Assembly: GCA_003963405.1 (NCBI GenBank)
Contig: RXIY01000049.1
Coordinates: 62,001 to 126,000, forward strand
Length of the DNA: 64,000 bases
Origin: Hyphomicrobiales bacterium
Lineage (GTDB): Bacteria > Pseudomonadota > Alphaproteobacteria > Rhizobiales > Beijerinckiaceae
Reading direction: 5' to 3'
A program made the position numbers and the translations under genes. A model generated the notes under the pieces. That model had not been told where the DNA came from. It made no database searches and worked only from the letters and a program-made list of their open reading frames with translations. Of this stretch, positions 4,169-63,736 are shown piece after piece; position 1 is the stretch's first letter; each line of letters begins with the position of its first letter.

Positions 4169-5083
4169 ATGCTCGAAGGTCTTCCCCCCAATGGCGCCAG
4201 CCATGTGCTGCGCCTCTCCTGCGACGAAAGCCGCGCCCGCGCCGTCGCCGACATCATCGTCGAGACATTCGACCCGACGGAAACCGCCGCCGGCGCCTTC
4301 GAGGTGGACGACGGCCCGGTCTGGTCGGTCGAGGTCTATTTCGCCGAAGCGCCGGACGAGGATGAAATCCGCGCCCTGATCGAGGCGGTGAGCGACGCCG
4401 AGACCGCCGCCCGCGCCGAGTTTTGCGAGATCGCAAAGGAAGACTGGGTGCAGAAATCGCTCGCCGGGCTCGAGCCCGTGCGCGCCGGCCGGGTGCTGGT
4501 GCACGGCGCCCATGATCGCGCGCGGCTGAGGCCCAATGACGTCGGCGTCGAGATCGAGGCGGCGCTCGCCTTTGGCACTGGCCATCACGGCACGACGCTG
4601 GGCTGCCTGCGGGCGCTCGACGGCGTCACGAAGCGCCGCCGCCCGCGGCGCGTGCTGGATGTCGGCACGGGCACCGGCGTGCTCGCCATCGCGGCGGCGA
4701 AGCTTTTGCGCCAGAAGGTCGCCTGCGGCGACATCGATCCCGTGGCGGTCGAGACCGCCCGCGCCAACGCCATCGCCAATGGCGCAGTCGCCTTCGTGCG
4801 GCCGGTCGTGGCGACGGGGCTGCGTCACGGCGATATGGGCGGACGCTACGATCTGATCTTCGCCAATATTCTCGCCAAGCCCCTGCGGCTGCTCGCGCCC
4901 TCGATCGCCCGCGCCGCCGCGCCGGGCGCGGAGCTGGTGCTGTCCGGCCTTCTGGCGCGCGACGTCGCGGGCGTTCTCGCGGCCTATCGCGGGCAAGGGT
5001 TCTATCTCGCCCGGCGCGGCGACATCGACGGCTGGGCGACGCTGGTTCTCAGCAAGGGACCAAGGCGCCGGCCGACCATTTAG
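4169..5083 (+). CDS. prmA: Ribosomal protein L11 methyltransferase
   Basis: A 304-residue class I SAM-dependent methyltransferase expected to trimethylate ribosomal protein L11. The N-terminal substrate-recognition part is followed by the family hallmark AFGTGHHGTT, then motif I VLDVGTGTGVLAIAA, the acidic CGDIDPVAVE and the catalytic-region motif FANILAKPL. Length is normal for PrmA. The gene is monocistronic, divergent from the GTPase unit and followed by a GC-rich hairpin. Confidence 0.96.
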   Translation: MLEGLPPNGASHVLRLSCDESRARAVADIIVETFDPTETAAGAFEVDDGPVWSVEVYFAEAPDEDEIRALIEAVSDAETAARAEFCEIAKEDWVQKSLAGLEPVRAGRVLVHGAHDRARLRPNDVGVEIEAALAFGTGHHGTTLGCLRALDGVTKRRRPRRVLDVGTGTGVLAIAAAKLLRQKVACGDIDPVAVETARANAIANGAVAFVRPVVATGLRHGDMGGRYDLIFANILAKPLRLLAPSIARAAAPGAELVLSGLLARDVAGVLAAYRGQGFYLARRGDIDGWATLVLSKGPRRRPTI

Positions 5084-50513: not shown

Positions 50514-51470
50514 TCACAGATATTTGGTCAGGCTGAGCTGACTAATCCTGGCGGTGAGGGTGTAGGCGGTTTCAATGCGCGTCATTAATTCATTGACTCT
50601 CGCGCCGGCTTCCGTGGGGTCGATCGATTCGAGCTCACTCAATTGAGTGTCCAAACCATCTTTCTGGATAGACATGACGTCGCTTGCGTTTTTCACCGAG
50701 TTCTGCATGACGCCGACGCGGGCCTGGATGTTTGTCAGCATGCCGACGCCGATGTCCAGCGTGTCCATCGCCGCCTTCAAAAGAACAGCGTAGGAGTCCC
50801 TATTCAATCGCTCGGCGCCGAGATCGGTCAACATGGCGTATGCAGATGCAATCTTCGGTAGGGCTGGCTCATTCGCGCTCACTGAGGCGTCCATGGTCAC
50901 CGAGAGGCTGACCTGGGCGCGCAGCACGCTGTCCGAAGCGCTCGACCAGTCGCTCTTCCAGCCTGCATCTGAAAAGAGCTGTGCAAAGGCGCCTGTAAGA
51001 AATCCCTGCATCTGAGTCGGCGAGATCGATGAGACCGCGGAATTGGACTGCGTGAAGCCGAAAGCCGTCTCATATGCCGCGTCCAGGGCAAGTTTGTTCG
51101 GTTGGCTGGGCTTGGCGAAATAATCGGCGATCGGCTCCTGGATGGTGCTAATTCCACCAAAGAGAAAGCCATCTGCATTCGAGCTGTTGAGTTTGGCTAT
51201 CAATGTCGCGAGGGCTTGGTCGGCTTGCTTGATGATCGCTGTCGGCTCACCGCCGTCGGTTTGCGCCGACATCAAAGTCGCGCGCATGTTTTGCGCGTCG
51301 GCGCGCAGGGCGGAAAGTGCGACCTGGGTCGTGTCGAGGCGTGTTGCGACGACCTGGTTGGAGGCGAGTGTCGCATCGATCGTGTCGCGAAGGCCTGCGA
51401 CCGAGAAACACTGGCTAGCGCGCACGCCCAACGCCGTGCCGAGATCGGCGATAGTGGCATCCTTCGGCAT
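50514..51470 (-). pseudogene. flgL: flgL lacking its N-terminal part at a mobile-element boundary
   Basis: The 318 readable codons match FlgL from about residue 40 on: DLGTALGVRAS corresponds to the conserved aDvGlaLG segment, then SNQVVATRLDTTQVALSALRADAQNM, and the C-terminal helix RVNELMTRIETAYTLTARISQLSLTKYL is intact. The usual start (about 35-40 residues forming the D0/D1 helix needed for assembly and export) is missing; eight codons above the first ATG there is a stop at 51492. The integrase gene begins 119 bp away, so the loss is best explained by insertion. A shortened protein could still be made, but is unlikely to assemble. Confidence 0.8.
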
Positions 51471-51589: not shown

Positions 51590-52840
51590 ATGGTCAAGCA
51601 GCTCAAAGAGAAGCTCACCGATCGCAAGGTGAGGACCGTCGGGCCGGGCCGACATGGGGACGGGAAGGGTCTTTGGCTCAACGTCTCGCCCACCGGCTCG
51701 CGCACCTGGGAATTCCGTTTCCAGATCGCCAACCGCAGCCGCACCATGTTCCTGGGGAACCTCGACAACGTGTCCCTCGCCCAGGCGCGAGACCTCGCAG
51801 AAGACGCGCGCAGGCTTGTGAAGCGCAAGATCGACCCCATCGAGCAGCGAAAGGCAGCGCAAGAGGCCGAGGCCGCCTCCAAGGCCCGCGAAACGGGCGC
51901 GCCAACATTCGGACAAGCAGCCGCAGAATTTATCCGGCGTCGGCAAGACGGATGGAGCGCCGGCAGTCTTAGAGAATGGGTACGCACCATTCGCGACTAT
52001 TGCGAGCCGATAGCGGATAAGCCCACAAACAAGATCGACGCCGCCGATATTTACGCAATCCTGGACCCGCTGTGGCACTCGAAGAACGAGACCGCAATCC
52101 GGTTGCGCCATCGCATCGAGAAAATCCTGAGCGCGGCGCGATCCAGCGACAGCCGCAATCATTTCTTTGACGCCAATTGGGTCAATCCTGCCCGCTGGCG
52201 CGACCATCTTGCGAACCATTACGGCCCGCCTCCAAAGGGCGAGCAAAAACGCCACCCGGCCATGCCATATGAGGAAATACCGGCCTTTATCCAGCGGCTA
52301 CGCGAGCGGGATACAGTCCTTTCGCTCTGTCAGGAATTCTTGATCCTGACATGCGTGCGCACGGAGGAGGGCAGGGGAGCCAGGTGGGAGGAATTCGACA
52401 TCGCCGGCCGGCTGTGGACGATCCCTGCCCCCCGCATGAAGGATAAAAAAAGATCACACCGCGTCCCGCTCTGTGATCGGGCTATGGCGATCCTGGAGGA
52501 GATGCGCGCCCGCAGTGACGGCAGACCGTTCGTTTTCGCCGGGGTCGCGCCAGGAATGCCCGTGGGCGAGTCGAGCCTGCGTTGGCAGCTCAGGTATATG
52601 GCCGTCACCAACGCCTCGCCCCATGGCTTCCGGAGCAGCTTCAAGGTATGGGCCACCGAGGTTGCCCGCATCCCGGACGATGTGTCCGAAGCTTGCCTGG
52701 CCCACCAGGTCGGAACCGCCGTTCAACGAGCCTACCAGCGATCGGACATGCTCGACCGCCGGCGCGAGGCCCACGACGCCTGGGCCGCATATCTCGACCG
52801 GACGCCAGGGGTGAACGTCATCCGCATGCGGCGGGCGTAG
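51590..52840 (+). CDS. int: Tyrosine recombinase, P4-type integrase
   Basis: A 416-residue site-specific recombinase. The N-terminal DUF4102 arm-binding domain is seen in VKQLKEKLTDRKVRTVGPGRHGDGKGLWLNVSP, followed by a core-binding domain and the catalytic domain with Arg in TCVRTEEGRGARW (near 255), HGFR (near 345) and the nucleophile Tyr in AYQRSDMLDRR (near 381). It points away from flgL into the element. P4-type integrases usually use tRNA genes; a target inside flgL would be unusual. Confidence 0.95.
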   Translation: MVKQLKEKLTDRKVRTVGPGRHGDGKGLWLNVSPTGSRTWEFRFQIANRSRTMFLGNLDNVSLAQARDLAEDARRLVKRKIDPIEQRKAAQEAEAASKARETGAPTFGQAAAEFIRRRQDGWSAGSLREWVRTIRDYCEPIADKPTNKIDAADIYAILDPLWHSKNETAIRLRHRIEKILSAARSSDSRNHFFDANWVNPARWRDHLANHYGPPPKGEQKRHPAMPYEEIPAFIQRLRERDTVLSLCQEFLILTCVRTEEGRGARWEEFDIAGRLWTIPAPRMKDKKRSHRVPLCDRAMAILEEMRARSDGRPFVFAGVAPGMPVGESSLRWQLRYMAVTNASPHGFRSSFKVWATEVARIPDDVSEACLAHQVGTAVQRAYQRSDMLDRRREAHDAWAAYLDRTPGVNVIRMRRA

Positions 52841-52870: not shown

Positions 52871-52960
52871 GTAACTACGTAACTACTACTACTATATCCA
52901 ATAATATCAGCGGCCTGCCGGTTACATTCTTGGTTACGGGTTACGAACTGGAAACGTAAC
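52871..52960 (+). repeat. GTAAC/GTTAC cluster 1, candidate iterons
   Basis: Six copies of a five-base motif within 90 bp: GTAAC at 52871, 52879 and 52956, and GTTAC (its complement) at 52921, 52933 and 52940. Spacings are 3, 37, 7, 2 and 11. The cluster begins 31 bp after the integrase stop. The same pattern, inverted, is found at 62757-62846, which suggests binding sites for an element-encoded protein, most simply the primase-helicase. Confidence 0.7.
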
Positions 52961-53289
52961 CGGCTTTAAAAGTGCCGCATGAAGCGGCTTCGCTGGGGAG
53001 AGCCGGCTGGGGGAAATGTCCGGCGGGCTTGCGCGTTCCCGTGAGCCACCACCTCTGCCCACTCTCGCACCCGTCCACCCAGCGTCCCGCCCGCTGGAAC
53101 AACAGCCACCGGCACGTTGGTGGAACATCCGCTTGGTCGATTGGTTGAACCAGCGCGACGCGTAGCCCCTGGCTTGTCCCGGAGCCACTCCCCAGTGTCC
53201 CTGGCGGGCTATGCGCCGCACCCCCGGGAACATCGTTTCCACTGGCGAGTTGCTCCTTCATCCCCCTCCCAGGGGAGCTCTTCTCCTTG

Positions 53290-53315
53290 GCCCGGCCGTG
53301 TGCCGGGCTCTTTTT
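53290..53315 (+). terminator. Intrinsic terminator 1
   Basis: GCCCGGC and GCCGGGC form a 7-bp stem around CGTGT, followed by TCTTTTT. There is no protein gene on the + strand just upstream, so it may end a small RNA or the integrase transcript. Confidence 0.7.
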
Positions 53316-53583
53316 GGGGATGGTCAGCGGTTGGGAAAGGAAATGGCGGCCCACCCACCACCAAGGTAGGGATAAAGGGTGAGCCGCCAGTGGTAGCCGA
53401 TGCGCCTTCACGGGGCGCAGTCCGCGCGTCATGATCGCTCCATCATGACCGCCATGGCCAACGCTCGAACATCGCTCGGGTTGCGGTCCATTTTGTCGCA
53501 CCCGCATGCGGAACAACCTGCTTGCCGGGCGGTTCTGTTACCGACCAGCGTCAGCACACTGGTTCCTCATCATGTCCAACTCA

Positions 53584-53608
53584 CCCGGCGCACGTCGCCG
53601 GGTTTTTT
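53584..53608 (+). terminator. Intrinsic terminator 2
   Basis: CCCGGCG and CGCCGGG form a 7-bp stem around CACGT, followed by six T. It lies about 40 bp before the next gene and would insulate it from upstream transcription or end a short RNA starting between 53316 and 53580. Confidence 0.8.
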
Positions 53609-53651
53609 GTGCGAGGGAAATTAGGTCAGCATTGTTGACCTATTTCTGATT

Positions 53652-54389
53652 GTGCGCTTACTCTGCGGCCATGCTCACGCGCGCGTCGCGGTTTACCGGA
53701 GCGACAATCCCTTGGCCGACACCGCCGACACGACGCAAAAGGCCCACTCGAACCGCCTGGCGCGCCTCGGGCATCATTTGTCTGCCGCGAAGCGAAAGCC
53801 CATCGTGGAGCTAAACGCCAAGGCAAAGCTTCTTATCGAATACATGGCGACGGGCTGTCCGCATCCGTGGGTGAGCCAGATCACCCGCGCCAGCCCGACT
53901 GAGTTGGAGCCCGACCGCCGCCGGCCGCTGGAGCCGGGTGAGCCGATGAAGCTGGACGAAGCCGCCGACCTCTTGCGCATCCGTCGCCGGCGCGCCCGCG
54001 AAATCATGCAGAGCCCCGCCGCGCAGAAGGAGCTCGCCCGTCAGCTCCAGGGATTGCGCTCCGGCATGAAGGCCCGCGCCATGGCCGTCTTGGGCGCGAT
54101 CCTGGAGGACGAGGGCGACGGGACAGCTGCAACGAAAACCGTCCGGCTCAAGGCCGCGAATGCGATCCTTGGCGAGGAACAGCGCAACGGCGGCGTGAAC
54201 GTGCACATCAACAACGGCCCGATCCTGCAGGCGGGCGTAGTCGTGCGATTGCCCAGCGGGATTGCCGCCCCGCCCTTGGAGAGCAACCAGCCTGGCCCGA
54301 CCCGCATCGAGCAGCGCCCGACCGACCTAGAGGCCCGCGCGGTTCCGGATTACGCGCCGATCCACGCTGACGACGAGGCCGACGCATGA
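53652..54389 (+). CDS. Phage-like DNA-binding protein, possibly terminase small subunit-like
   Basis: A 245-residue protein. The middle part has a helix-turn-helix look (MKLDEAADLLRIRRRRAREIM) followed by QGLRSGMKARAMAVLGAI and KTVRLKAANAILGEE, a pattern seen in small terminase subunits and related phage proteins; the C-terminus is Pro-rich and acidic. The start is uncertain: GTG at 53652 is the first possible, later ones exist. It overlaps the next gene as ATGA and opens a packed gene string to 56792. Confidence 0.5.
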   Translation: MRLLCGHAHARVAVYRSDNPLADTADTTQKAHSNRLARLGHHLSAAKRKPIVELNAKAKLLIEYMATGCPHPWVSQITRASPTELEPDRRRPLEPGEPMKLDEAADLLRIRRRRAREIMQSPAAQKELARQLQGLRSGMKARAMAVLGAILEDEGDGTAATKTVRLKAANAILGEEQRNGGVNVHINNGPILQAGVVVRLPSGIAAPPLESNQPGPTRIEQRPTDLEARAVPDYAPIHADDEADA

Positions 54390-54478
54390 CCGCCCCGCAG
54401 TTCATCATCCTCGTCATCGCGAACATCGCCCTGCGGCTCGAAAAGGCGTGGGCGCTTTTGACGGAGCGCGATCAATGA
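54386..54478 (+). CDS. 30-residue peptide gene
   Basis: MTAPQFIILVIANIALRLEK then WALLTERDQ and stop. ATG overlaps the previous stop (ATGA) and its own stop overlaps the next start (ATGA), a strong sign of coupled translation despite the small size. Hydrophobic N-terminal half; function unknown. Confidence 0.5.
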   Translation: MTAPQFIILVIANIALRLEKAWALLTERDQ

Positions 54479-54696
54479 CCGATCACCCGACCTTCTTCGC
54501 GCGCGAGTTGGCGGCCGACGCAGAGCGGGACTTCAACGCGTTGCAGCGCCGCCGATCCGAAGTTGACGCCAAGCTCGGCAAAATGAGCCAGGCCGATCAA
54601 GAGCAATTCAAAGCGGAACTCACGCGCTTGCTCAAACGAAACGAAATCACGCGCGGCAAACCTTCATTCCGCCGCGCGTGGTCGCACTCAAAATAA
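54475..54696 (+). CDS. Small charged helical protein
   Basis: A 73-residue protein rich in Glu, Lys and Arg (ERDFNALQRRRSEVDAKLGKMSQADQEQFKAELTRLLKRN), probably a coiled coil. Part of the packed phage-like string; ATGA overlap with the upstream gene sets the start. Not recognised. Confidence 0.55.
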   Translation: MTDHPTFFARELAADAERDFNALQRRRSEVDAKLGKMSQADQEQFKAELTRLLKRNEITRGKPSFRRAWSHSK

Positions 54697-54717
54697 CCGC
54701 GCACATAGGAGCTTCCC

Positions 54718-54951
54718 ATGGCAGCCCGAGGATTTTCAGACAAACCGACGCCCTATCGCGTCTCGACATCCGCGACATCCAAAGCCATGGCCGGCTTCGG
54801 CCGCACGCCGCCCGGGCCCGACGCCGCGTCTCTGCGCAGAATTGCGGAGGGCTCCGTAGGTCGCGACCTGGCGCCGACGACCGGCCGCAAAACCGGCTTG
54901 CCCGCGTCCCTCACCCCCGAGGCCGTTGAGCGCAAGAAAGGCGAAGCATGA
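54718..54951 (+). CDS. Small basic hypothetical protein
   Basis: A 77-residue, Ser/Thr/Pro-rich protein without predicted membrane segment (ending TPEAVERKKGEA). AGGAG lies 5 bases before the ATG, and its stop overlaps the next start (ATGA). Low complexity suggests disorder. Confidence 0.5.
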   Translation: MAARGFSDKPTPYRVSTSATSKAMAGFGRTPPGPDAASLRRIAEGSVGRDLAPTTGRKTGLPASLTPEAVERKKGEA

Positions 54952-55259
54952 TTACCGCCGACGCAACCCTCGCCAGCCCCGCCGGCTTCCTGGCCGCTGT
55001 CTCCGCGAAGGCCGAGCGCCTTGGTTGGGATCACGAAGAGCTCTTGGCCCGCGCGAACGTCTCCCAGGAGGAATGGGAGGCCCTCGAAGAGGCCCTGTCC
55101 GCAGCCGATGGCGCCGTGTTCCGGAAGCTCTCGAACGCCGTCAAAAGCCAGGCTGTCCTGGCCACGCAGACCAGCAAGGTTCTGGAAGACCCCACCGGCC
55201 GCGCGACCGATGCGCGCTATGGCTCCGAATGGTCAAGCCACTTTGGCGACCACGGCTGA
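54948..55259 (+). CDS. Small hypothetical protein of the phage-like string
   Basis: A 103-residue protein, mostly helical; the segment AKAERLGWDHEELLARANVSQEEWEALEEALS has a helix-turn-helix-like rhythm, but no family is recognised. Coupled to the gene above through ATGA. Confidence 0.55.
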   Translation: MITADATLASPAGFLAAVSAKAERLGWDHEELLARANVSQEEWEALEEALSAADGAVFRKLSNAVKSQAVLATQTSKVLEDPTGRATDARYGSEWSSHFGDHG

Positions 55260-55267
55260 CACCTGCC

Positions 55268-55468
55268 ATGAGCGACGACGCCGACGATCCCCGCCAGATC
55301 GACAAGCCCGCAAACGCATGGGCCGATTGCGAGCGCGTTGTCCCCTGGCACACGTCGCCGCTTCCCGATCGCGATGCACTTTGGGAGATGCACAAGCAGC
55401 GCAACTTGATCCGGCGCGAGCCGAAACCACCCCAGCCGCCAAGAGGCATTCGGCGGCGAGTGTTTTAA
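55268..55468 (+). CDS. 66-residue hypothetical protein
   Basis: An acidic start (MSDDADDPRQID) and a Pro/Arg-rich end (REPKPPQPPRGIRRRVF). It starts 8 bp after the previous stop. A larger frame starting at 54926 exists, but the portion before 55268 overlaps the real upstream gene. Confidence 0.45.
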   Translation: MSDDADDPRQIDKPANAWADCERVVPWHTSPLPDRDALWEMHKQRNLIRREPKPPQPPRGIRRRVF

Positions 55469-55482
55469 CAATGGAGACGACC

Positions 55483-55803
55483 ATGGAGCGTGGATATATT
55501 CGGACAGCACTCGGCGGAGAAGTGCGGGCTTATGCGACGGCGACGACGCCAATCGGAATTTTGAAAGGCGTCATGCAGGCCCTCGAATATCATGGGGCCG
55601 ACCTCGACGCGCTTCCTGCGAACGTGGACATCAAAAAGCTTGAACAGGATTTCGCGTCGATCAATGCGCGCGACTTCGAGCGGCTGTTAAGCGTCCTTGA
55701 GCATATTGGATTGCAAATCGCGATCATCGAGGCGCATGAGCGCACGGGAAAAGGCGTCGTCTCTCGGCTCGATCCCGGCACGCAGCTCGGCCGCGTCGCC
55801 TGA
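55483..55803 (+). CDS. Hypothetical protein of the phage-like string
   Basis: A 106-residue soluble protein (MERGYIRTALGGEVRAYATATTPIGILKGVMQALE). GGAG lies 6 bases before the ATG at 55483; a start four codons earlier is possible. The strand-helix pattern is regular but no family is recognised. Confidence 0.55.
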   Translation: MERGYIRTALGGEVRAYATATTPIGILKGVMQALEYHGADLDALPANVDIKKLEQDFASINARDFERLLSVLEHIGLQIAIIEAHERTGKGVVSRLDPGTQLGRVA

Positions 55804-55819
55804 CGCAGAGGGCGGCGCG

Positions 55820-56242
55820 ATGATGGCAATCACTGTCTTCTCTTTGGTCGTCTCGCTGCCGCCCGATGGCATCGAGCGCTTGCACCGCGTGCTTCTGACA
55901 CATGGGCGCATCCGCGACGTTCTGTCCGAAATCGCCTACCACTACCTAGTGAAATGCACGCCCGACACGACGGCTGGCATGTTGGCTGACATCGTCAACG
56001 CGTCGCTCCCAGGCAATCTGTTTTTCGTTGTGCAGTGCCATCATGAGCGGCTCGCCGGATTTGTCAGTGACGACGCAGTGGCGTGGTTGAAAGCAGACCC
56101 GCCGCCGCCCAGGGGCCCGGATCATGAGCCCGACATCGACGCGATTATGCGTTTGCCATTGCTCGCCGGCCTTGAATACGCCGCTCGCATGCGACGCCGT
56201 TCGCAGCGGATAGCGGAACTCCAACCTGTAGGGAACGCGTGA
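55820..56242 (+). CDS. Hypothetical protein of the phage-like string
   Basis: A 140-residue protein beginning MMAITVFSLVVSLPPDGIERLHRVLL, with mixed alpha/beta pattern and a basic end. GAGGGCGG precedes two adjacent ATG codons. The next gene starts one base after its stop. No family recognised. Confidence 0.5.
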   Translation: MMAITVFSLVVSLPPDGIERLHRVLLTHGRIRDVLSEIAYHYLVKCTPDTTAGMLADIVNASLPGNLFFVVQCHHERLAGFVSDDAVAWLKADPPPPRGPDHEPDIDAIMRLPLLAGLEYAARMRRRSQRIAELQPVGNA

Positions 56243-56243
56243 C

Positions 56244-56792
56244 ATGGGCGCCGCCGCACCTTTTCTCAGCCTCGCCGCCACTGGCCTCGGCGCAAAGGGA
56301 AGCATTTCCGCCGGCAACACCGCTGCGGCGAATGCCAGACAGGCCGGGCAAGATCAGTGGATGAGCGCGTTTTACAGCTCGGAGCAAGCGCAGTTGGCAA
56401 GCCAAGTTGGTGAACTTCGCGCCAGCCAAACCGACCTTTACATGCGCCGGCAGATGGAGGGGACATTGGCAAATGTCGACGCTGTCAGCGCGCTCTCGGG
56501 AGCCACTGACAACTCGCCTTCGACATGGGCTGTCCGCAACCGTTATGAGAACCTGGCCGACGAGGCGCGCACGACGGCGACGGCGAACCTTCGACTGGAC
56601 GCCGCCGCCAAGCGCAACGCCGCGCAGCTCTACGCGATGTCAGGAATGCGGGCGATGCAGATGGCCGATGCGAACGCGAACAACCTGCAAATGAATGGAA
56701 TACTCGGCGCGGCCGGCGGGCTGTTGAAAGCCATCGCTCCCAACCGCCCAGGCGACCCCTACAACAACGGATTTGCCGGCTTCTATTTCTGA
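56244..56792 (+). CDS. Phage virion-core (T7 gp14-like) protein
   Basis: A 182-residue Ala/Asn/Gln-rich helical protein. LANVDAVSALSGATDNSPSTWAV followed by a long helical stretch matches the pattern of podoviral internal virion/ejection proteins of the gp14 type, which usually read LANIDAI..GV.P.SPT. The Gly/Ala-rich N-terminus and a weakly hydrophobic end fit too. It is the only virion-type gene recognised in the element, so it may be a relic or be used in a helper phage particle. Confidence 0.6.
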   Translation: MGAAAPFLSLAATGLGAKGSISAGNTAAANARQAGQDQWMSAFYSSEQAQLASQVGELRASQTDLYMRRQMEGTLANVDAVSALSGATDNSPSTWAVRNRYENLADEARTTATANLRLDAAAKRNAAQLYAMSGMRAMQMADANANNLQMNGILGAAGGLLKAIAPNRPGDPYNNGFAGFYF

Positions 56793-56800
56793 CCCGCTTC

Positions 56801-57205
56801 TTAAGCATCGCTCTCGCTCAGCCCCGTCTCCTTCGCCGCCGCGCCGATCTTCGTCTCCCGCTTCGCCTTCCGCCGTGGCGGTTGCGGGGTGGGAGGCGTG
56901 GGGGTTGGTTGGGCCTGTGGTTTACCAGCACTGGTAAACCGCTGAAGTTCGTTGCTGGCAATAAGGCGGATTGATCGGCTCTCAGTCGCCGCAAGGCACG
57001 CCCGCGTCGCATCCATATCGTTGCCCATCTGCACAAGCGCCGCACGCTCTTGATGGCTCATCCCGAACCCCTGCGCGTCCCACCAGGAGCCGAACTCGCG
57101 GTCCGCAGGGAAGCGGGCGCGGCGCAGTGTAAAAAAATTACGCGGACCGACACGAAAGCATCGCGAAAAGACCCCGTGGCGAGGGGATTTATTCGCGCCA
57201 GACAC
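56801..57205 (-). CDS. DUF3102-like phage-associated protein, start uncertain
   Basis: A conserved core FPADREFGSWWDAQGFGMSHQERAALVQMGNDMDATRACL resembles DUF3102-type proteins of phages and plasmids; a Pro/Thr-rich linker and a Lys/Arg-rich end follow. Up to 134 codons are open from a GTG at 57205, but an operator-like site at 57127-57143 falls in this N-terminal part, so the true start may be lower. It is convergent with the virion-core gene, 8 bp apart. Confidence 0.6.
   Translation of the reverse strand: MSGANKSPRHGVFSRCFRVGPRNFFTLRRARFPADREFGSWWDAQGFGMSHQERAALVQMGNDMDATRACLAATESRSIRLIASNELQRFTSAGKPQAQPTPTPPTPQPPRRKAKRETKIGAAAKETGLSESDA
57127..57143. promoter_or_regulatory. Operator-like motif copy 1
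   Basis: GTGTA-N7-TACGC, an imperfect inverted repeat with an A-rich centre. Same layout as the sites at 57238 and 57976. It lies at the upstream side of the DUF3102-like gene. Confidence 0.45.
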
Positions 57206-57237
57206 GCAAGATTTTGAAATAGATCGACAAAGTAGTG

Positions 57238-57254
57238 GTATAAAAAAACTACAT
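57238..57254. promoter_or_regulatory. Operator-like motif copy 2
   Basis: GTATA-N7-TACAT with an A-rich centre, extended by flanking GTAG and CTAC. It lies between the divergent genes at 57205 and 57385 in AT-rich DNA and could serve both directions. Confidence 0.45.
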
Positions 57255-57384
57255 ACAGCGTAGATTTTCTACTGCAAAAACATAGACTTGTGTTGTTTAC
57301 AAACAGGTTGATTAGTGCATATTTATTGCTGTGGCCGATTTGTAATAGGCCGCGCAGAAGTAATTTAGCCGAGGGATTTTTCCA

Positions 57385-57735
57385 ATGGTCAGCAAGAACT
57401 TGCAACGCGCGATCGACAAGCATCGCAAAGCCTTCAACGGCTTTTTCAATCACCCGAACATCGACACTATGCCGCACGATCAATCGTATAGGCTTTCGGA
57501 GGCGGAAGATTGCGCCGCTCGGAAGATCGCAACCATGAAGATCAGGAACGACGCGGAGTTTCTTCACGCGCTCAAATACCTGACGCTTCGTGCGCGCAGG
57601 ATTTGGGGCGACCCTGACAATGGCTTTGACCTCAGCGACATAGCTGTGCTGATCGAGCAATATCTCAGACTTTCCGACGAAGAGGCCGAGCAGGTTTTTG
57701 GCGATGCGCGAAAGGCCGAACAGAGCGCCGCCTGA
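57385..57735 (+). CDS. Hypothetical protein of the mobile element
   Basis: A 116-residue helical protein (MVSKNLQRAIDKHRKAFNGFFNH, then AVLIEQYLRLSDEEAEQVFGDARK). GAGGG lies about 10 bases before the ATG, and the region above holds an operator-like site and AT-rich promoter DNA. It is followed by a GGCCGGCC-repeat hairpin (57743-57769). No family recognised. Confidence 0.6.
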   Translation: MVSKNLQRAIDKHRKAFNGFFNHPNIDTMPHDQSYRLSEAEDCAARKIATMKIRNDAEFLHALKYLTLRARRIWGDPDNGFDLSDIAVLIEQYLRLSDEEAEQVFGDARKAEQSAA

Positions 57736-57975
57736 CATGCAAAGGCCGGCCCCTGGCGGAGGCCGGCCAGCTCTTCGGTTGACGCCGGAGGAGCGGGGGC
57801 GCGGCAACACCCCCATTTCGCGATGAAAGCCCATGGCCCCCGCGCGGGCAGCGCACCCGCCCGTCTGGTAGGACAACACTCCTAAAGGCCGCCATCGCCC
57901 TTGTCTGCCTTAAAAGCAGAACCTCCGAGCATCACAATTCCGAACGAATTTTCGATTTGAACGTTACGAGAGGGT

Positions 57976-57992
57976 GTGTAAAAAATATACGC
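57976..57992 (+). promoter_or_regulatory. Operator-like motif copy 3, before the HicB-like gene
   Basis: GTGTA-N7-TACGC, nearly identical to copy 1. It lies directly before AAGGAG (57993-57998) and 16 bases before the GTG start of the HicB-like gene, so a bound protein could block both promoter clearance and translation start. Confidence 0.5.
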
Positions 57993-58008
57993 AAGGAGCC
58001 AAATCGCT

Positions 58009-58317
58009 GTGTTTTCTAAGGACGCATCAAGCCGTTTTGCCAAGGTCGTCGTGACTTTCGAGCCACGCGAGGACGGCGGTCTTCGCGCGTACAGCAAGGA
58101 TGTTCCCGGATTTGTTTTGTCCAATAGCGACCCAGAAAAGGTAATTGAAGGCGTGGTTCCAGCCTTAGAGTTCATACTGTCAAAGACATGGGGCGTAGAG
58201 GTTGAGGCTGCTATTCTTTCTCACATTGGCGAAAACGGAAGCGCCTTCGATTGTGAGGAAATTTTGTCATCACATGACACGCCGATAGCGCGCGAATACG
58301 TGGCGCACGTAGCATAG
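58009..58317 (+). CDS. HicB-like antitoxin
   Basis: A 102-residue protein from a GTG start set by AAGGAG 10 bases upstream. AKVVVTFEPREDGGLRAYSKDVPGFVLSNSDPEKVIEGVVPALEFIL has the partial RNase-H-like fold pattern of HicB antitoxins (a strand with an acidic loop, then P-G-F and a helix). No C-terminal DNA-binding domain is evident. The toxin-like gene follows after four bases. Confidence 0.6.
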   Translation: MFSKDASSRFAKVVVTFEPREDGGLRAYSKDVPGFVLSNSDPEKVIEGVVPALEFILSKTWGVEVEAAILSHIGENGSAFDCEEILSSHDTPIAREYVAHVA

Positions 58318-58321
58318 ATAC

Positions 58322-58573
58322 ATGATCCGCACTCCCTTACTCGCTCGCTCCGAGTGGGAGGCGAAGCTTAGACGGCACGGATTAAAGCCTTTAGAAGGCG
58401 GAGGCCCGTTGAATGCTACCTTGGAATGGTGGCAAGCGCCGAACGGCGGCTATCCGATCACCGTTCCTATTGAAAAAGATGGTTCGTGTGATTTCTGGGC
58501 CATTCAAAAAATCTGCGAAGACATAGGCAAGCCACCGCCAAAAAACCCGTTTAAGCCGGTAATTGTGAACTGA
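58322..58573 (+). CDS. HicA-like toxin (divergent)
   Basis: An 83-residue protein. EWEAKLRRHGLKPLEGG then YPITVPIEKDGSCDFWAIQKICEDIG shows the helix-strand-strand-strand-helix rhythm of HicA mRNA interferases (double-stranded RNA-binding fold), but the catalytic His in the usual place is not evident. Gene order antitoxin-toxin is opposite to classic hicAB. It may be a partner with another activity. Confidence 0.5.
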   Translation: MIRTPLLARSEWEAKLRRHGLKPLEGGGPLNATLEWWQAPNGGYPITVPIEKDGSCDFWAIQKICEDIGKPPPKNPFKPVIVN

Positions 58574-58599
58574 AGGGCAAGGCGCGCGGCGAGGCCTTC

Positions 58600-58677
58600 T
58601 TAAGACCCGCTCGCCTTCCGCAATCGCACCCCGGCCCCGCCGCCATTCTCCGGGATAAACTGGACGCCGGCCGCATC
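58600..58677 (-). pseudogene. Remnant of a second XRE regulator tail
   Basis: Directly after the stop of the XRE gene, another frame reads SDAAGVQFIPENGGGAGVRLRK, the typical C-terminal end of small alphaproteobacterial XRE proteins. It is similar to the end of the intact gene (EAAGVEFRDENGEVCVCLKK), so the region holds two tails in tandem but only one head, a sign of recombination between related regulators. Confidence 0.6.
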
Positions 58678-58933
58678 ACTGGCGTTTCTTAAGGCAGACG
58701 CAGACCTCTCCGTTTTCGTCGCGGAACTCCACGCCAGCGGCTTCGAGCGCGGCGCGGATGGCGGCCACGGTTTCGTCGCGGCCCAGCAAATCGCCGTCCC
58801 GAGCCTCAAGACGCCTCACCGTCACAATGGACAGGCCCGACGCCGCAGAAAGATCGGTCTGCTTCCATCCGAGCATTTCCCTAGCCGCCTTCACCTGTCT
58901 GACTGATATGCGGAATATCTTTTCGGTTGACAT
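58676..58933 (-). CDS. XRE-family repressor-like protein
   Basis: An 85-residue single helix-turn-helix protein (VKAAREMLGWKQTDLSAASGLSIVTVRRLEA) with a short C-terminal beta tail. It is a good candidate for the protein that binds the repeated GTRTA-N7-TACRY sites of this element. It is transcribed toward the HicA-like gene. A second tail fragment follows its stop. Confidence 0.85.
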   Translation of the reverse strand: MSTEKIFRISVRQVKAAREMLGWKQTDLSAASGLSIVTVRRLEARDGDLLGRDETVAAIRAALEAAGVEFRDENGEVCVCLKKRQ

Positions 58934-59027
58934 CAGGCTCTCTCTGGATTGATATTCAAAATATCACAGCGCGCTCGCAAGAGCAACGCCGGGGACTCCA
59001 CTCCCGGCGAACGCCGGAGCTCGTCCG

Positions 59028-59198
59028 ATGGACTGTAAAACCGCCGTCACCCTTCTCGCCGTCGCGCCTTTCCTGGCGCTGGCCATCGCCTTTCTCGCGG
59101 CCGAAACGGCCGCGATCTTCGAGGCGCTGACAGCCAGGCCACACGCCGCCGCCTGTGGACAAGCCGATAGAGGCGAGCCAGCGCCTCCGGCCGCGTGA
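59028..59198 (+). CDS. 56-residue membrane or secreted peptide
   Basis: MDCKTAVTLLAVAPFLALAI continues hydrophobic to about residue 30, then a short Ala/Pro-rich tail. GGAGC lies 9 bases before the ATG. It could be a signal-anchored phage-type peptide such as a spanin or holin-like protein, but nothing specific is seen. Confidence 0.4.
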   Translation: MDCKTAVTLLAVAPFLALAIAFLAAETAAIFEALTARPHAAACGQADRGEPAPPAA

Positions 59199-59286
59199 CA
59201 GATTACCGAACGCGCGGGGATAGGCCGGCCAGCCGACAAGCGGGAAAGCATCGCCCGTTTCCCCGCGTTCCATTCGATGCTCGCGG

Positions 59287-59964
59287 ATGCTCGCGATGCC
59301 CAAGACGCCGTTCGACCCGCTGTCAGCGGAAGACCTCGAAGCAATCGAGGACACAATCATCGAATTCTCTCCGGATGCGCGCGTCGTGTGTCTCGCCGCA
59401 GTCAAGGCGAGAGCGAGGGATTGTGCGCTTGCGATCGACTTCCAGAAAAACTTCAAGGACGATCCGCTCGCGGAAATTCTGGAACTAGAGAAAGCGGCTC
59501 TCGCATTCATCGGCGCTGTTAACGCGCTAGGCCCACAGGCCCACGTCTATCTATCAGGCAGCATTTGCGGCATTCGGAAGCCGGAAGGTGCGCCAACTTT
59601 TCTTGAAGCAGGGCAGGCGGCGGCGGACTTTTTATGCTCCGATACAACGCAGTATGCGATCAAAAAGCTAACTGATAAGCGGCGGGAGAAGACCAAGGCG
59701 ACCCCGCACTTGGACGAGCTGATCAACGGCCTGCGCAGCCACTACCTACACGCGGAGCTTACCTCCGAAACCGCGCCAGACGAGCATCGTTGGTGGCGCT
59801 TTTTCCACGCGATCACCTCGCGCATGGAATGCCTGGATAAAGCTCTCGCCGGACGGATGAAGGGCATGGGGCCGACATGCGCCAACTGGCGCGGCAAATG
59901 GCGGAAGAAGATCGAGAGCGGCTCAGGAAAATACCCCCGCAAACTCAGGCGACATTATTCCTGA
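59287..59964 (+). CDS. Hypothetical protein of the mobile element
   Basis: A 225-residue protein, acidic N-terminal half and basic C-terminal half (WRGKWRKKIESGSGKYPRKLRRHY). Helices dominate (ARVVCLAAVKARARDCALAIDFQ). Two in-frame ATGs (59287, 59296) are possible. No family recognised; base use is less GC-biased than in the chromosomal part. Confidence 0.6.
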   Translation: MLAMPKTPFDPLSAEDLEAIEDTIIEFSPDARVVCLAAVKARARDCALAIDFQKNFKDDPLAEILELEKAALAFIGAVNALGPQAHVYLSGSICGIRKPEGAPTFLEAGQAAADFLCSDTTQYAIKKLTDKRREKTKATPHLDELINGLRSHYLHAELTSETAPDEHRWWRFFHAITSRMECLDKALAGRMKGMGPTCANWRGKWRKKIESGSGKYPRKLRRHYS

Positions 59965-60026
59965 GCGTTTCGTGCCGACGCGTGCCACCGTTGCCGTGCT
60001 TCGCAATGCTTCGAGGTTTTCAGCAG

Positions 60027-60272
60027 ATGGCGCGTCCCGAAATCACTGGCAAGAAACAGCGCGGCCCCGAGCCGTTTAGCCTCGCAGATAGGCTCGATTA
60101 TGGAAGCTTTTCGGTCCGTGAGGCTCAGCAGCTCGCCGGCGTCTCGAACACGAAATTCTATAAGGACGTGAAGGCGGGGCTCGTCCAAATCATCAAGAGG
60201 GGCAGCGCCTCCTCGGTCCCTGGCCCGAGCCTCAAGCGCTACATGGGCCTCGTTACGGACGCCGCCGCCTAG
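60027..60272 (+). CDS. AlpA/excisionase-like DNA-binding protein
   Basis: An 81-residue protein with a MerR-type winged helix: FSVREAQQLAGVSNTKFYKDVKAGLVQIIKRG, followed by a basic end. Such proteins act as excisionases or as activators of integrase genes in P4-like elements. The ATG at 60027 is chosen because the longer frame overlaps the preceding gene. Confidence 0.7.
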   Translation: MARPEITGKKQRGPEPFSLADRLDYGSFSVREAQQLAGVSNTKFYKDVKAGLVQIIKRGSASSVPGPSLKRYMGLVTDAAA

Positions 60273-60335
60273 TCATGAAAAACGCCGGACGGGGCGCAAC
60301 CCCCGTGCCGGCGTCAATTCAATTTCGAGCAGCCA

Positions 60336-60554
60336 ATGTCTAATCCAGATCACGCGCGCCTTCAAGCGCACCGGCTCGCCAGAGTGCTCATCCGCGCCGG
60401 AGACGAGCGGATAGCAGCGGAGGCGATCCTCGCCCTTGCCAATGGCACCCAACTCGAAACCGTGGCCCGCGACTTCGGACGGGTCTTCTCCGGCGTCGGG
60501 CTCATAACCTATCGCAAGCTCGCCGTCGCCATGACCCAAGGTGGGCGCGCATGA
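60336..60554 (+). CDS. Small protein coupled to the primase gene
   Basis: A 72-residue helical protein (LQAHRLARVLIRAGDERIAAEAILALANG). Its stop overlaps the primase start (ATGA), so it is translated with it and may be a replication cofactor. No family recognised. Confidence 0.6.
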   Translation: MSNPDHARLQAHRLARVLIRAGDERIAAEAILALANGTQLETVARDFGRVFSGVGLITYRKLAVAMTQGGRA

Positions 60555-62902
60555 GGCTCTCCAAAGACCAGGAAGCCGCCATCATCGGCGACGTTGCCCG
60601 TGAGATTGGAACGCCGCCGCCGCGAGCTAGCATTGGCTCATATGTCCGTTGGGCTCCAAAGAAGGGGGGCGACCCAGACGCCTTTTTGCGGGTCTATCCC
60701 GACAGAGAGCCGCCTGTCATTCACTTCGGGGATTGGGCGAACGGCGTCAGCGTTTGGAAGCCCCTTTCCGAAATGGTCGCGCTCTCTCCCGACGAGCTGC
60801 GCCAGCTCAGGGAGCAAGCCAAGACCGGCGAGGCAGAGAGCGCAAAGTTTCGGGCCGACGCGCGCAAACAGATGCTCGAAGAGTGGAGCGCCGCCGATCC
60901 GGATGGGAGTAACGCTTACATCGTCAACAAGGGCTTGCTCGACCACAGGGCTGGCGTCCGCTTCATTGGCAAAGAGCTGATCGTCCCGGTGCAGATAGAC
61001 GGTAAAATTATCTCTTACCAGCGCATTCTGCCCAACGGCAGCAAGCTTTTCCGCAAGGGCTGTTCGGCAAAAGGCGGATACTTCGTCTTTGGCGCGTTGG
61101 ATGGCGCAGAGACAATCATGATCGGCGAGGGATGGGCGACCATCGTGGCCGCGTCTAGGTCCACTGGATACCCCGCTATAGCTGCTCTATCGAAGGGGAA
61201 CCTCAAGTCCGTCGCGCTGCATATCAAGCGCCGGTTTCCCAAGGCGCTTCTCGTCATTCTTGCCGACGATGACCACAAGAGAGAGCTGGCCGAAGGCCGC
61301 AATCTCGGCATCGTCTACGCCAGCGAAGCCGCCGACGCGGCAGATGCAATTCTCGCCATTCCAAAGTTTGACAGAACCATTTGTCCAGATGGGACCGACT
61401 TTTGGGACATGGCGACATTTCATGGAGATCAGAGCGTGAGAGACGCGATCGAGGGCGCGATCGAGGGCGAGCCGATGGCCAGCGATGGCAAGACAGAGGC
61501 ACCGCCGCCCTCGGTTGACGAGACGCGAGAAGAGATTGCCAGATTAGCCGGGCTCGATCGCATCTCCTACGATCAGCAGCGCGAGAAGGCCGCTGAGCGC
61601 CTTGGTATCCGCGCGGCGACGCTCGACAAAGCTGTTGCCGATGAGCGGAAAGCCTGCGAAAGCGCAGACGCTGAAATGTGCGCCGACGTTGAACCTCACG
61701 ACTATCCTGTAAACGGCGCGGAGCTGCTCAGCGAGATCAAGGCCATGATAGAGCGCCATGTGATCTGCACCGACAGTGTTACAACGGCGGTCGCGCTATG
61801 GGCTGCTTTCACTTGGGTCATTGACCATGTGAATGTCGCTCCGATTGGCGTTATTCATGCGCCAGAGAAGCGTTGCGGAAAAAGCGTATTGCTTGAACTT
61901 ATCTCGGAATTTTCTAGGCGCGCGCTCCCTGCATCGAACATATCTTCCGCCGCAATGTATCGCGTCATCGAAGAGCATAAACCGACGCTGTTGTTGGACG
62001 AGGCGGACGCATTCTTTCGGGAGAACGAAGACCTTCGCGGCATCGTGAACTCTGGCCACACCCGAAAGATGGCATTTGTCATCCGCTGCGATGGCGACAA
62101 GAACACGCCGAAGCGGTTCTCTACCTGGGGCGCGAAATGCTTTGCCGGCATCGGCACGCTCGCCCCCACGATAATGGATCGGTCGATAACGTTCGAGCTC
62201 AGGCGCAAGCTCACCACTGAGAAGGTGGATAGTCTGCGCCATGTTGATCCCCGAGTTTTCGACGGGATCCGGCGCAAGTTGGCGCGCTTGGCCGAGGATT
62301 ACGGAGCTACCGTTGGGCTCGCTCAGCCAAAAATGCCGAAGGGCATTAACGATCGCACGTATCTGAATTGGGAGCCGCTTGTCGCCATTGCCGACGTTGC
62401 CGGCGGAGACTGGCCGGAGATGGCCAGGAAGGCGCTTATCGCAATCGAGGGGAGCGGCGCTAAGGAGCTGTCCCACGGCGAGGAGCTCTTGCTCGCCTGC
62501 CGCGACGCCTTTGAGCAAAGAGGGACCGACAGGCTCACCCGAGACGAGCTCTTGGACATCCTCACTTCCGATACCGAAGCGCCATGGGCGACCCTGAACA
62601 GGGGTAGGCCAATGACCGCCAGTCAGCTCCGTCAGCGGCTCAAGAAATACGGCATCGAGCCAAAGCCACACAAATTCGGATACGAGACAAAGCGCGGGTT
62701 TTTGACCAAACAATTCGCTGAAGCCTGGGCGCGCTATCTGGACGGAAACGCCGAAAGTTACAGCTTTGAAGGCGTAACTGTAACGGAAAACGTAACCGAT
62801 AGTACTTTGAATATTAACGGTAAAGAGCCTCTTGTTACGAAGTTACACAAAAATCCAGAGGGGGGAGAGGCGAAGAGCGCGCGCAGGGAGGTCGTCATTT
62901 GA
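60551..62902 (+). CDS. Primase-helicase with TOPRIM and DUF3631 parts
   Basis: A 783-residue replication protein. The N-terminal third has a TOPRIM-like domain (IMIGEGWAT near residue 190, VILADDD near 239); the centre has a P-loop ATPase (APEKRCGKSVLLELI near 438, TLLLDEADAFF near 482); the end is DUF3631-like (LLDILTSDTEAPWATLNRGRPMTASQLRQRLKKYG). It should prime and unwind element DNA, like the alpha protein of P4. Its last ~50 codons contain GTAAC cluster 2 (reading as VTVTENVTDS and PLVTKLH). Confidence 0.9.
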   Translation: MRLSKDQEAAIIGDVAREIGTPPPRASIGSYVRWAPKKGGDPDAFLRVYPDREPPVIHFGDWANGVSVWKPLSEMVALSPDELRQLREQAKTGEAESAKFRADARKQMLEEWSAADPDGSNAYIVNKGLLDHRAGVRFIGKELIVPVQIDGKIISYQRILPNGSKLFRKGCSAKGGYFVFGALDGAETIMIGEGWATIVAASRSTGYPAIAALSKGNLKSVALHIKRRFPKALLVILADDDHKRELAEGRNLGIVYASEAADAADAILAIPKFDRTICPDGTDFWDMATFHGDQSVRDAIEGAIEGEPMASDGKTEAPPPSVDETREEIARLAGLDRISYDQQREKAAERLGIRAATLDKAVADERKACESADAEMCADVEPHDYPVNGAELLSEIKAMIERHVICTDSVTTAVALWAAFTWVIDHVNVAPIGVIHAPEKRCGKSVLLELISEFSRRALPASNISSAAMYRVIEEHKPTLLLDEADAFFRENEDLRGIVNSGHTRKMAFVIRCDGDKNTPKRFSTWGAKCFAGIGTLAPTIMDRSITFELRRKLTTEKVDSLRHVDPRVFDGIRRKLARLAEDYGATVGLAQPKMPKGINDRTYLNWEPLVAIADVAGGDWPEMARKALIAIEGSGAKELSHGEELLLACRDAFEQRGTDRLTRDELLDILTSDTEAPWATLNRGRPMTASQLRQRLKKYGIEPKPHKFGYETKRGFLTKQFAEAWARYLDGNAESYSFEGVTVTENVTDSTLNINGKEPLVTKLHKNPEGGEAKSARREVVI
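62757..62846 (-). repeat. GTAAC/GTTAC cluster 2, inverted copy of cluster 1
   Basis: Motifs on the + strand at 62757 (GTTAC), 62774, 62780, 62792 (GTAAC), 62834 and 62842 (GTTAC). Read on the minus strand the order is GTAAC, GTAAC, GTTAC, GTTAC, GTTAC, GTAAC with spacings 3, 37, 7, 1 and 12, against 3, 37, 7, 2 and 11 in cluster 1. Both span 90 bp. The bases between motifs differ widely, so the spacing itself seems to be selected. Confidence 0.7.
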
Positions 62903-63222
62903 GCGCCGCCCGCGCCCTCGACTGGCTCCATAGCCATGGCGTCACCGTGGAGCTCGACGGCGGGAGCCTGCGCCTCACCGGCGACACCGATCTCTCCCCC
63001 GCGATCGTCGCCCGCATCCGGGAGCTCAAGCCGCTGATTGTCGCAGAGCTGTCCCGTCCCCTATTCGACCCCGACCGCCTCCAGGCCGAGGCGGACAGGA
63101 AGAACGCCCAGGCCATCCGTGAGGGCCGGACTGACCGCTTTTGCCGCTGTGGGCATTTGGCCGAGGCGGAAAGGATAATCGACAACAGGCCGACATGGCG
63201 CTGCGACGAATGTAGGAGATAG
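62899..63222 (+). CDS. TubC-like docking domain plus zinc-ribbon protein
   Basis: A 107-residue protein from a TTG start that overlaps the primase stop (TTGA). The first half (ALDWLHSHGVTVELDGGSLRLTG, then IRELKPLIVAEL) resembles the small TubC N-terminal docking fold; the second half ends in a Cys4-type zinc site (FCRCGH and WRCDECRR). Position suggests a helper that links the primase-helicase to DNA or SSB. Confidence 0.65.
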   Translation: MSAARALDWLHSHGVTVELDGGSLRLTGDTDLSPAIVARIRELKPLIVAELSRPLFDPDRLQAEADRKNAQAIREGRTDRFCRCGHLAEAERIIDNRPTWRCDECRR

Positions 63223-63226
63223 AGCC

Positions 63227-63736
63227 TTGACCGCCTATGCCTTGATCAGTGGAACGCTCCACCGCGCGCCCGAGCGCCGGACCTCGAAAGCCGGCAAGTC
63301 GTTCGTCACCGCGACCGTCAAGACGCGCGAGGCCGACGCCTCGACGTTCTGGCGCATCGTCACCTTTTCGGAAAGCGCCGGCGAAGAGCTGATGGCGCTG
63401 ACAGAGGGCGATGCAGTCGCATGTCAGGGCAGCATGAAAGCCGAGCTGTATCGGCCAGAGGGGGGCGAGGCGCGGGTGAGCCTCAGCATGGTCGTGGACG
63501 CTATCCTGCCCGCGAAGGGTCGCCCCAAGCGCAAGGACCATGGGGACGACGACCGCCAGCCCGAGCCAGAGAGCAAGCCGTCGCCGGCCCGGCCGAGCGA
63601 TTGGAGGGCCAGAGAAGGACGCCGCAGGAGCTTGGCCGAGCAGGCTGGGAACGGCGGGACCGCGCACGGTTACGGCCACCAGCCCAGACATTGGGGCGGG
63701 ACCGCCGATCCGGAATTGAATGACCCTCCATTCTAA
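63227..63736 (+). CDS. ssb: Single-stranded DNA-binding protein
   Basis: A 169-residue OB-fold protein from a TTG start. ALISGTLHRAPERRTSKAGKSFVTATVKTR is the first OB strands; FWRIVTFSESAGEELMALTEGDAVACQGSMKAELY follows. A disordered, charged linker leads to the tip ELNDPPF, the acidic Phe-ended tail through which SSB recruits partner enzymes. It completes a primase/TubC-like/SSB replication set. Confidence 0.85.
   Translation: MTAYALISGTLHRAPERRTSKAGKSFVTATVKTREADASTFWRIVTFSESAGEELMALTEGDAVACQGSMKAELYRPEGGEARVSLSMVVDAILPAKGRPKRKDHGDDDRQPEPESKPSPARPSDWRAREGRRRSLAEQAGNGGTAHGYGHQPRHWGGTADPELNDPPF

Follow-up and report, generated by a model that had tools for sequence, protein, structure and literature searches.

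Matching iteron arrays beside the integrase gene and within the primase-helicase gene of a DUF3631 element, predicted to start its replication

A 64,000-nucleotide stretch of a Hyphomicrobiales bacterium genome (GenBank assembly GCA_003963405.1, contig RXIY01000049.1, positions 62,001 to 126,000; henceforth the window) carries an element that codes for a tyrosine integrase and for a primase-helicase with a DUF3631 domain. Here we describe two matching arrays of short repeats (iterons) in this element, one, A, in non-coding DNA downstream of the integrase gene and the other, B, within the 3' end of the primase-helicase gene (Table 1). We predict from sequence comparisons, with a probability that we place at about 0.8, that both arrays are bound by the element's own primase-helicase via the wing of its C-terminal winged helix, which would start replication of the element, and that B is likely an origin lying inside the gene. 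We also show that equivalent arrays follow the winged-helix codons in most relatives of this gene, that their letters differ between genes under a common spacing grammar, and that these letters covary with three residues of the wing; this family-wide letter code is the new part of our findings.

Two matching arrays and their counterparts in DUF3631 relatives

Direct reading of the window confirmed the two clusters of six GTAAC/GTTAC motifs that had been noticed from the letters alone. The motifs start at 52871, 52879, 52921, 52933, 52940 and 52956 in array A, and at 62757, 62774, 62780, 62792, 62834 and 62842 in array B. Counted from the first site, the offsets are 0, 8, 50, 62, 69 and 85 in A and 0, 8, 50, 62, 68 and 85 in the reverse complement of B, with all six directions equal; the clusters are mirror images, as originally noted, with spacing that agrees within 1 bp. 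The intervening DNA is mostly different, again as had been stated, with 21 of 59 bases outside the motifs being identical, and the base preceding each site, when it is read as GTAAC, is C or T at 12 of 12 sites. One cluster does lie inside the primase frame, where B occupies part of the last 48 codons. Of the 38 GTAAC/GTTAC sites in the window, 12 fall within the 180 bp of A and B, whereas 100 versions of the window simulated with a first-order Markov model had one site (61 runs) or two (39 runs), and never six, in their densest 90 bp. Four inner positions drawn at random were all within 1 bp of the offsets of A in 97 of 2,000,000 draws, directions not yet being counted. The presumed rarity of the pattern was likewise upheld: a strict four-site form (two forward sites 8 bp apart, a spacer of 30-45 bp and two reverse sites) matched the 4,641,232-base genome at A (once) and B (twice, through alternative last sites) only, and the reversed pattern, used as a control, gave 0 matches. 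No near DNA match to positions 62700-62910 was found in the phage collection.

We then collected relatives of the primase-helicase, comprising 80 loci kept of 560 found in bacterial genomes, 49 loci from viral contigs, loci of additional genomes, one phage and three entries catalogued as plasmids, and, as a later addition, 61 viral loci, part of them on contigs already sampled. The array counts use 130 of 139 matches, the second gene of L066 and eight loci being left out (the window copies L001, L002 and L141, the broken L152 and L154, and the near-duplicates L147, L112 and L124), and the region scored starts where the winged helix ends and runs to 250 nt beyond the stop codon, with GTAAC and GTTAC counted as one word. 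In 112 of the 130 loci the winged-helix codons are followed by four or more copies of a single pentamer of the G-N-N-A-C type, the word being GTAAC in 34 loci, GCTAC in 20, GTGAC/GTCAC in 20, GCAAC in 19, GCCAC, GGGAC/GTCCC and GAAAC in 4 each, GGCAC in 3, GGAAC in 2, and GGTAC and GCGAC in 1 each. The letters vary between genes, are uniform within a gene, and stand under a common spacing grammar. When all 512 strand-collapsed pentamers were ranked in the 200 nt after the winged helix, the top word had the G-N-N-A-C form in 56 of the 130 loci, against 2 of 130 for control windows lying 600 nt upstream within each gene; among the remaining top words, many are one-base shifts of the same site. 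The array follows the initiator gene in a phage, in plasmids and in chromosomes with differing neighbours. Most of the DUF3631 genes that we examined keep the place of B at the 3' end, so that the gene is likely to contain its own origin, and B is very probably an origin recognised by its own gene product.

Some arrays lie outside the G-N-N-A-C scheme, namely those of the GTCCC type (L063, L104, L105 and L125) and those reading TCTAC (L173, L177, L227 and L231). L104 and L105 entered the letter tests described below as GGGAC, and TCTAC was scored only in the family comparison with a six-site frame. The six-site TCTAC arrays, whose wings have Q and G, indicate that letter 1 can also switch. Separately, ATCCG/CGGAT is the top word in L012, L018 and L034, which have Geobacter-type tails, with 7-9 copies per 200 nt, and is possibly a second conserved element near the array; in the viral contigs L165, L167 and L170, repeated S-E-A or S-D-P/T-S-D tail peptides suggest array classes beyond the scored words.

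The arrays are not confined to coding sequence. In 13 of 96 loci, four or more sites of the same letters are located past the stop codon; the sites before and after the stop number 2 and 11 in L021, 2 and 10 in L028, and 0 and 6 in L148, and, in two complete circular Streptomyces plasmids, 4 and 9 (L156) and 2 and 9 (L157). Where the sites are in frame and letter 3 is synonymous, this letter is the locus's own base at 331 of 500 sites in 77 loci, compared to an expectation of 118.9, derived from the same codons in other parts of these genes. The coherence of letter 3 is 0.662, against a shuffled mean of 0.541 and a maximum of 0.578 in 1000 shuffles. As judged from these patterns, selection is acting on the DNA of the sites and not on the peptide.

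Site letters, the wing and the spacing grammar

For the letter tests, 107 of the 116 loci with an assigned class passed our thresholds (a word ending in AC, an excess of at least 3 and a resolved direction); removal of helicases 90% identical left 96 loci, 93 of them in the tree. Among 343 columns of the protein alignment, those most informative about the letters are residues 706, 713 and 714 of the wing. With partners of less than 50% helicase identity, this trio predicts both letters in 45 of the 96 loci, while the nearest helicase does so in 13 and the best of 300 random trios in 23. In a hold-out set of proteins less than 85% identical to the training set, in which letter 2 is visible in the tail peptide, letter 2 was called correctly in 39 of 49 cases, compared to 22 of 49 using the commonest letter (of 101 candidates, 9 and 5 duplicates and 38 with unclear tails were left out). 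A bacterial family added later, with the DUF3631 domain in 20 of 298 genomes, gave 6 of 6 correct calls of letter 2 under a strict hold-out. Two of the distant viral loci, L171 (GAAAC, with Q) and L193 (GTGAC, with R), match the residue tendencies.

Close relatives point the same way. In a comparison set made up of the later bacterial family, four phage or viral relatives and L138/L139, one six-site frame fits 21 of 24 genes with at least 26 of 30 letters agreeing, and eight genes agree at 30 of 30; the consensus words are GAAAC, GCGAC, GCTAC, GTAAC, GTCAC or TCTAC. Among pairs of these 21 genes whose helicases are more than 80% identical, those with different letters (34 pairs) have wings that are on average 50.5% identical, whereas the 22 same-letter pairs have wings 82.9% identical. 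L138 and L232, for example, have helicases 98% and wings 46% identical, with arrays reading GCGAC (at three sites, the other three being GTGAC) and GTCAC respectively. The mirror sites 2 and 5 deviate jointly in five genes (L177, L234, L235, L236 and L241, the last four being close kin), which a two-fold symmetric complex would allow.

The spacing recurs regardless of the pentamer letters. In the 96 loci, same-direction site pairs are 8 bp apart in 55, 51 bp in 30, 18 bp in 26 and 43 bp in 22, and facing pairs are 39 bp apart in 42 and 31 bp in 27. The clearest form is a dyad, '> 8 > 43 > 18 < 43 < 8 <', to which at least five of six sites can be fitted in 18 of the 96 loci, spanning ten letter classes, as against 0 of 288 arrays whose gaps and directions had been shuffled; A and B are a variant of this dyad with 8 and 42 bp. 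The long gaps have a higher A+T fraction than the gene body (0.489 versus 0.422; higher in 60 of 79 loci).

A related arrangement is seen in phage P4, whose replication needs two regions, ori and crr, in cis. The P4 record has the type 1 repeats of crr at 4314+, 4323+, 4366-, 4384- and 4398+, plus a second copy, about 45 bases past the stop codon of the alpha gene, and repeats of the origin region that begin about 4.7 kb from crr. Most of the P4 repeats read TGTTCACC, versus GTAAC in the window. Directions included, array A coincides with P4 crr at 5 of 5 sites when a shift of 2 bp is allowed and at 4 of 5 when 1 bp is allowed. Among 3000 random arrays of six sites, five matches within 2 bp occurred once and four within 1 bp 34 times.

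Taken together, we consider it somewhat better than an even bet that wing and array form a movable specificity cassette of DUF3631 elements, with a decodable letter code, replication groups that would be blind to each other, and a fixed spacing that reflects a loading geometry of two rings. In such a code, P in the wing would go with C at letter 2, A with T and Q with A; at letter 3, T would go with A or C, V with T and R with G. The spacing would be common to P4 although its helicase is unrelated. At the gene's 3' end, only a few hundred bases hold both wing and array, and therefore one exchange could re-key the replicon.

Proposed mechanism and alternative readings

The primase-helicase is an evident member of its family, scoring 160.6 bits against PF12307 (cut-off 24), with Toprim_3 at residues 189-287 and DUF3631 at residues 550-729 in the family scan. 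Its helicase core is predicted by structure modelling to adopt an MCM-like AAA+ fold; the structure matches to the model cover mainly residues 370-639 and carry no information on the winged helix, and a sequence search of the PDB with profile A4 gave no match up to E 0.1. We propose that the wing binds the iterons to start replication of the element, with each pentamer seating one initiator subunit. The opposed groups of sites flanking an A+T-richer spacer would then assemble two helicase rings, which would melt the DNA and travel apart, while the Toprim half would prime synthesis. Array A, near the integrase gene, would either give the same protein a second place to load or be a kept duplicate.

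Table 1. Features of the element in the window
Feature	Positions	Strand	Remarks
Tyrosine integrase gene	51590..52840	+	Family scans; stop codon 30 bases before array A
Array A	52871..52960	+	Six GTAAC/GTTAC iterons, directions > > < < < >; non-coding DNA downstream of the integrase
Spacer of A	52884..52920		57% A+T versus 33% in flank; candidate melting site
Primase-helicase initiator gene	60551..62902	+	783 aa; Toprim_3, DUF3631; AAA+ core predicted as MCM-like, followed by C-terminal winged helix and disordered tail
Winged-helix codons	62474..62743	+	Residues 642-731, from the structure model
Wing codons	62663..62704	+	Residues 705-718, including 706, 713 and 714, which covary with iteron letters in relatives
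Array B	62757..62846	-	Six GTAAC/GTTAC iterons in the arrangement of A, reverse-complemented; 3' end of the primase-helicase gene; predicted origin
Spacer of B	62797..62833		65% A+T versus 40% in the gene upstream; candidate melting site
Single-strand binding protein (SSB) gene	63227..63736	+	Family scan; 3' of the initiator

Several results weigh against this reading. Fewer than four copies of a pentamer were found in 18 of the 130 loci. The sign tests on independent pairs agree in direction with the covariation, but their medians exceed 0.05. In ten distant viral loci held out from training (36-76% helicase identity), some with wings poorly aligned or of doubtful class, a naive Bayes predictor called letter 2 correctly in 3, letter 3 in 3 and both in 1; 18 further loci are without a class. 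Letter 3 was correct in only 3 of 6 cases in the later bacterial family, and the GTAAC genes L235 and L241 have V at 713, contrary to the trend. The mean A+T fraction of the spacers (0.489) is barely above that of the whole arrays (0.481) over 79 loci. All five crr sites of P4 are fitted by 2 of 96 in-gene arrays only, a set that includes the window, and four sites by 16, for which reason the exact crr form is not a family rule. Lastly, the published account of RepAM, the DUF3631 initiator of pMEA300, an actinomycete integrative element, predicts that it acts by rolling circle (PMC3218068).

The role of array A admits more than one account: it may be a second loading site, the partner of B in a bipartite origin, or a kept duplicate. 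The original prediction took A and B for the halves of one bipartite origin; in a true P4-type form of this reading both would be needed in cis, one as the start site and the other as a crr-like region. The two arrays of one element share letters and geometry, with motifs kept while the spacers diverged, P4 has two separated iteron regions of which one directly follows the primase gene, and A matches crr at all five sites. The ori and crr regions of P4, though, have unlike arrangements (A matches ori at 4 of its 6 sites), while A and B are alike. Moreover, the presence of a second array in relatives does not exceed background. Of 95 other loci, 4 had a second array with the locus's own letters (at least five sites in 130 bp), versus 43 of 1098 tests that used the letters of another class, and a looser search (at least four sites with gaps of up to 60 bp) recovered 14 of 112 loci, the window included, versus 121 of 1456. 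In each of two complete circular plasmids there is one large array. On inspection the sites of the second array in L036 are not array-like; that of L068 is at a contig end, and that of L017 is just 5' of the primase-helicase frame. A distant second array as a general feature of the family was rejected on these counts. Hence the bipartite origin was not borne out by the relatives, and we regard it as possible but doubtful for the window element itself. The expectation that related elements conserve the motifs held for the position of B but failed for a second array like A.

It is also unlikely, if only slightly more so, that A is a relic now devoid of function, left by an older element at the same site or by decay of a duplicated gene end. 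Two loci speak for this reading: the second array of L040 (6870-7150) is a fragment of another DUF3631 gene, comprising the last winged-helix residues and the iteron tail, about 4.9 kb before the intact gene, and L063 (6160-6395) has two different arrays adjacent in non-coding DNA, CGCTAC-like and then GTCCC, about 4.9 kb before the tail of its DUF3631 gene. Array A, for its part, retains six sites with the letters, directions and spacing of B despite the diverged spacers, and no remnant coding for a winged helix was seen among the reading frames next to it.

Binding of the sites by some other protein, such as an integrase, excisionase or repressor acting in recombination or regulation, is quite improbable. 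A adjoins the integrase gene, P4 has arm sites near int, and the family scan detects a helix-turn-helix (HTH) gene at 58676-58933. Against these stand the letters, which track the DUF3631 wing above all other columns of that protein (the one for which covariation was computed), and the arrays, which stay with the initiator gene as its neighbours change. Least probable of all is that the repeats are peptide repeats of the protein tail (e.g. S-V-T ... V-T-D), as the S-V-T, S-A-T, S-G-T or S-E-T words obtained by one-frame reading in many relatives might suggest: we reject this because arrays extend past the stop codon in genes with short tails and synonymous bases are held, and the sites moreover lie on both strands, the tail is disordered in the model, and A is non-coding.

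As for the rest of the element, most of its scanned genes between 53652 and 60269 have no Pfam or PHROG family above noise. A flagellin-family gene (50514-51470) adjoins the integrase, with a good match to Flagellin_C and a weak one to Flagellin_N (E 0.003). The right end of the element is unseen because the contig stops 871 bases beyond the window, and no convincing att pair emerged when the integrase side and the end of the contig were searched for shared direct repeats of 17 nt or longer.

Comparison with known replication systems

If the reading of A and B as initiator-bound arrays is right, it offers a mechanism for a helicase domain that occurs in elements from several phyla and has had no assigned function, and the likely origin of a DUF3631 element could be read from sequence alone. 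It would further provide a protein-DNA recognition code with at least 11 natural letter classes, testable on natural variants, and would explain how related elements share hosts without firing each other's replication. We found no report of DUF3631 iteron arrays or of a wing code in the literature searched, which covers few subscription journals. The papers cited in this section are compared on the basis of the parts of their text available to us.

Close parallels in layout are SaPI/PICI Rep and SCCmec Cch2, self-loading initiator helicases whose C-terminal domain binds iterons directly 3' of their own gene; in PICIs an A+T-rich region is flanked by two sets of iterons (PMC7581432, PMC6092414). 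Short iterons on the 3' side of the initiator helicase's own gene are a shared feature. The geometry of the window arrays fits this layout, with spacers of 57% and 65% A+T, yet over the 79 loci such spacers hardly stand out from their arrays. The helicases of these systems belong to other families, no Toprim half is described for them in those texts, and their origin lies after the gene and not in frame; nor do the same texts describe a code linking wing and letters (PMC7581432, PMC6092414).

In the literature searched, the name DUF3631 occurs in a single paper, the one that describes RepAM (PMC3218068). RepAM shares Pfam PF12307 with the initiator of the window, autonomous replication is reported for pMEA300 (PMC3218068), and complete circular Streptomyces plasmids among our relatives carry the array just after the gene. 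The rolling-circle prediction for RepAM conflicts with the MCM-like AAA+ model and the iteron arrays described here. Iterons within an initiator gene are known from lambda-like phages, where they lie in the middle of gene O (PMC7466680), and in geminiviruses domains of Rep covary with the iteron letters (PMC12548392). Their proteins are unrelated to the present one, and neither system is described in these sources as combining an in-gene origin with a family-wide letter switch that the wing of a winged helix reads. In pRN1 a stem-loop 3' of orf904 is the origin (PMC4234260), and oriV of RA3 is placed at the 3' end of repB (PMC9455977).

With the P4 replicon the window element shares a Toprim primase joined to a helicase, two separate iteron regions, and iterons arranged as in crr next to the primase gene's 3' end, a place taken here by B. 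The Toprim halves of the initiator and P4 alpha align with 32% identity over 133 aa (E 2e-11). The helicase and DNA-binding parts differ, being DUF3631 here and D5_N/DUF5906/Pox_D5 in alpha: D5_N and Pox_D5, by which membership of the alpha family was judged, were not matched in the window initiator, and a profile of its winged helix gave no alignment with alpha. One of the window arrays is inside the gene, and A and B are alike whereas ori and crr of P4 are not. The idea of a P4-like system was right in kind, in the initiator-type iterons, the Toprim-helicase and the crr geometry of A, and missed the family of the helicase; the element appears P4-like in site geometry and manner of working, but we do not class it as a P4 replicon. 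As P4 agrees in spacing despite a helicase from another family, the loading of mobile-element helicases on double-stranded DNA becomes a directly testable question.

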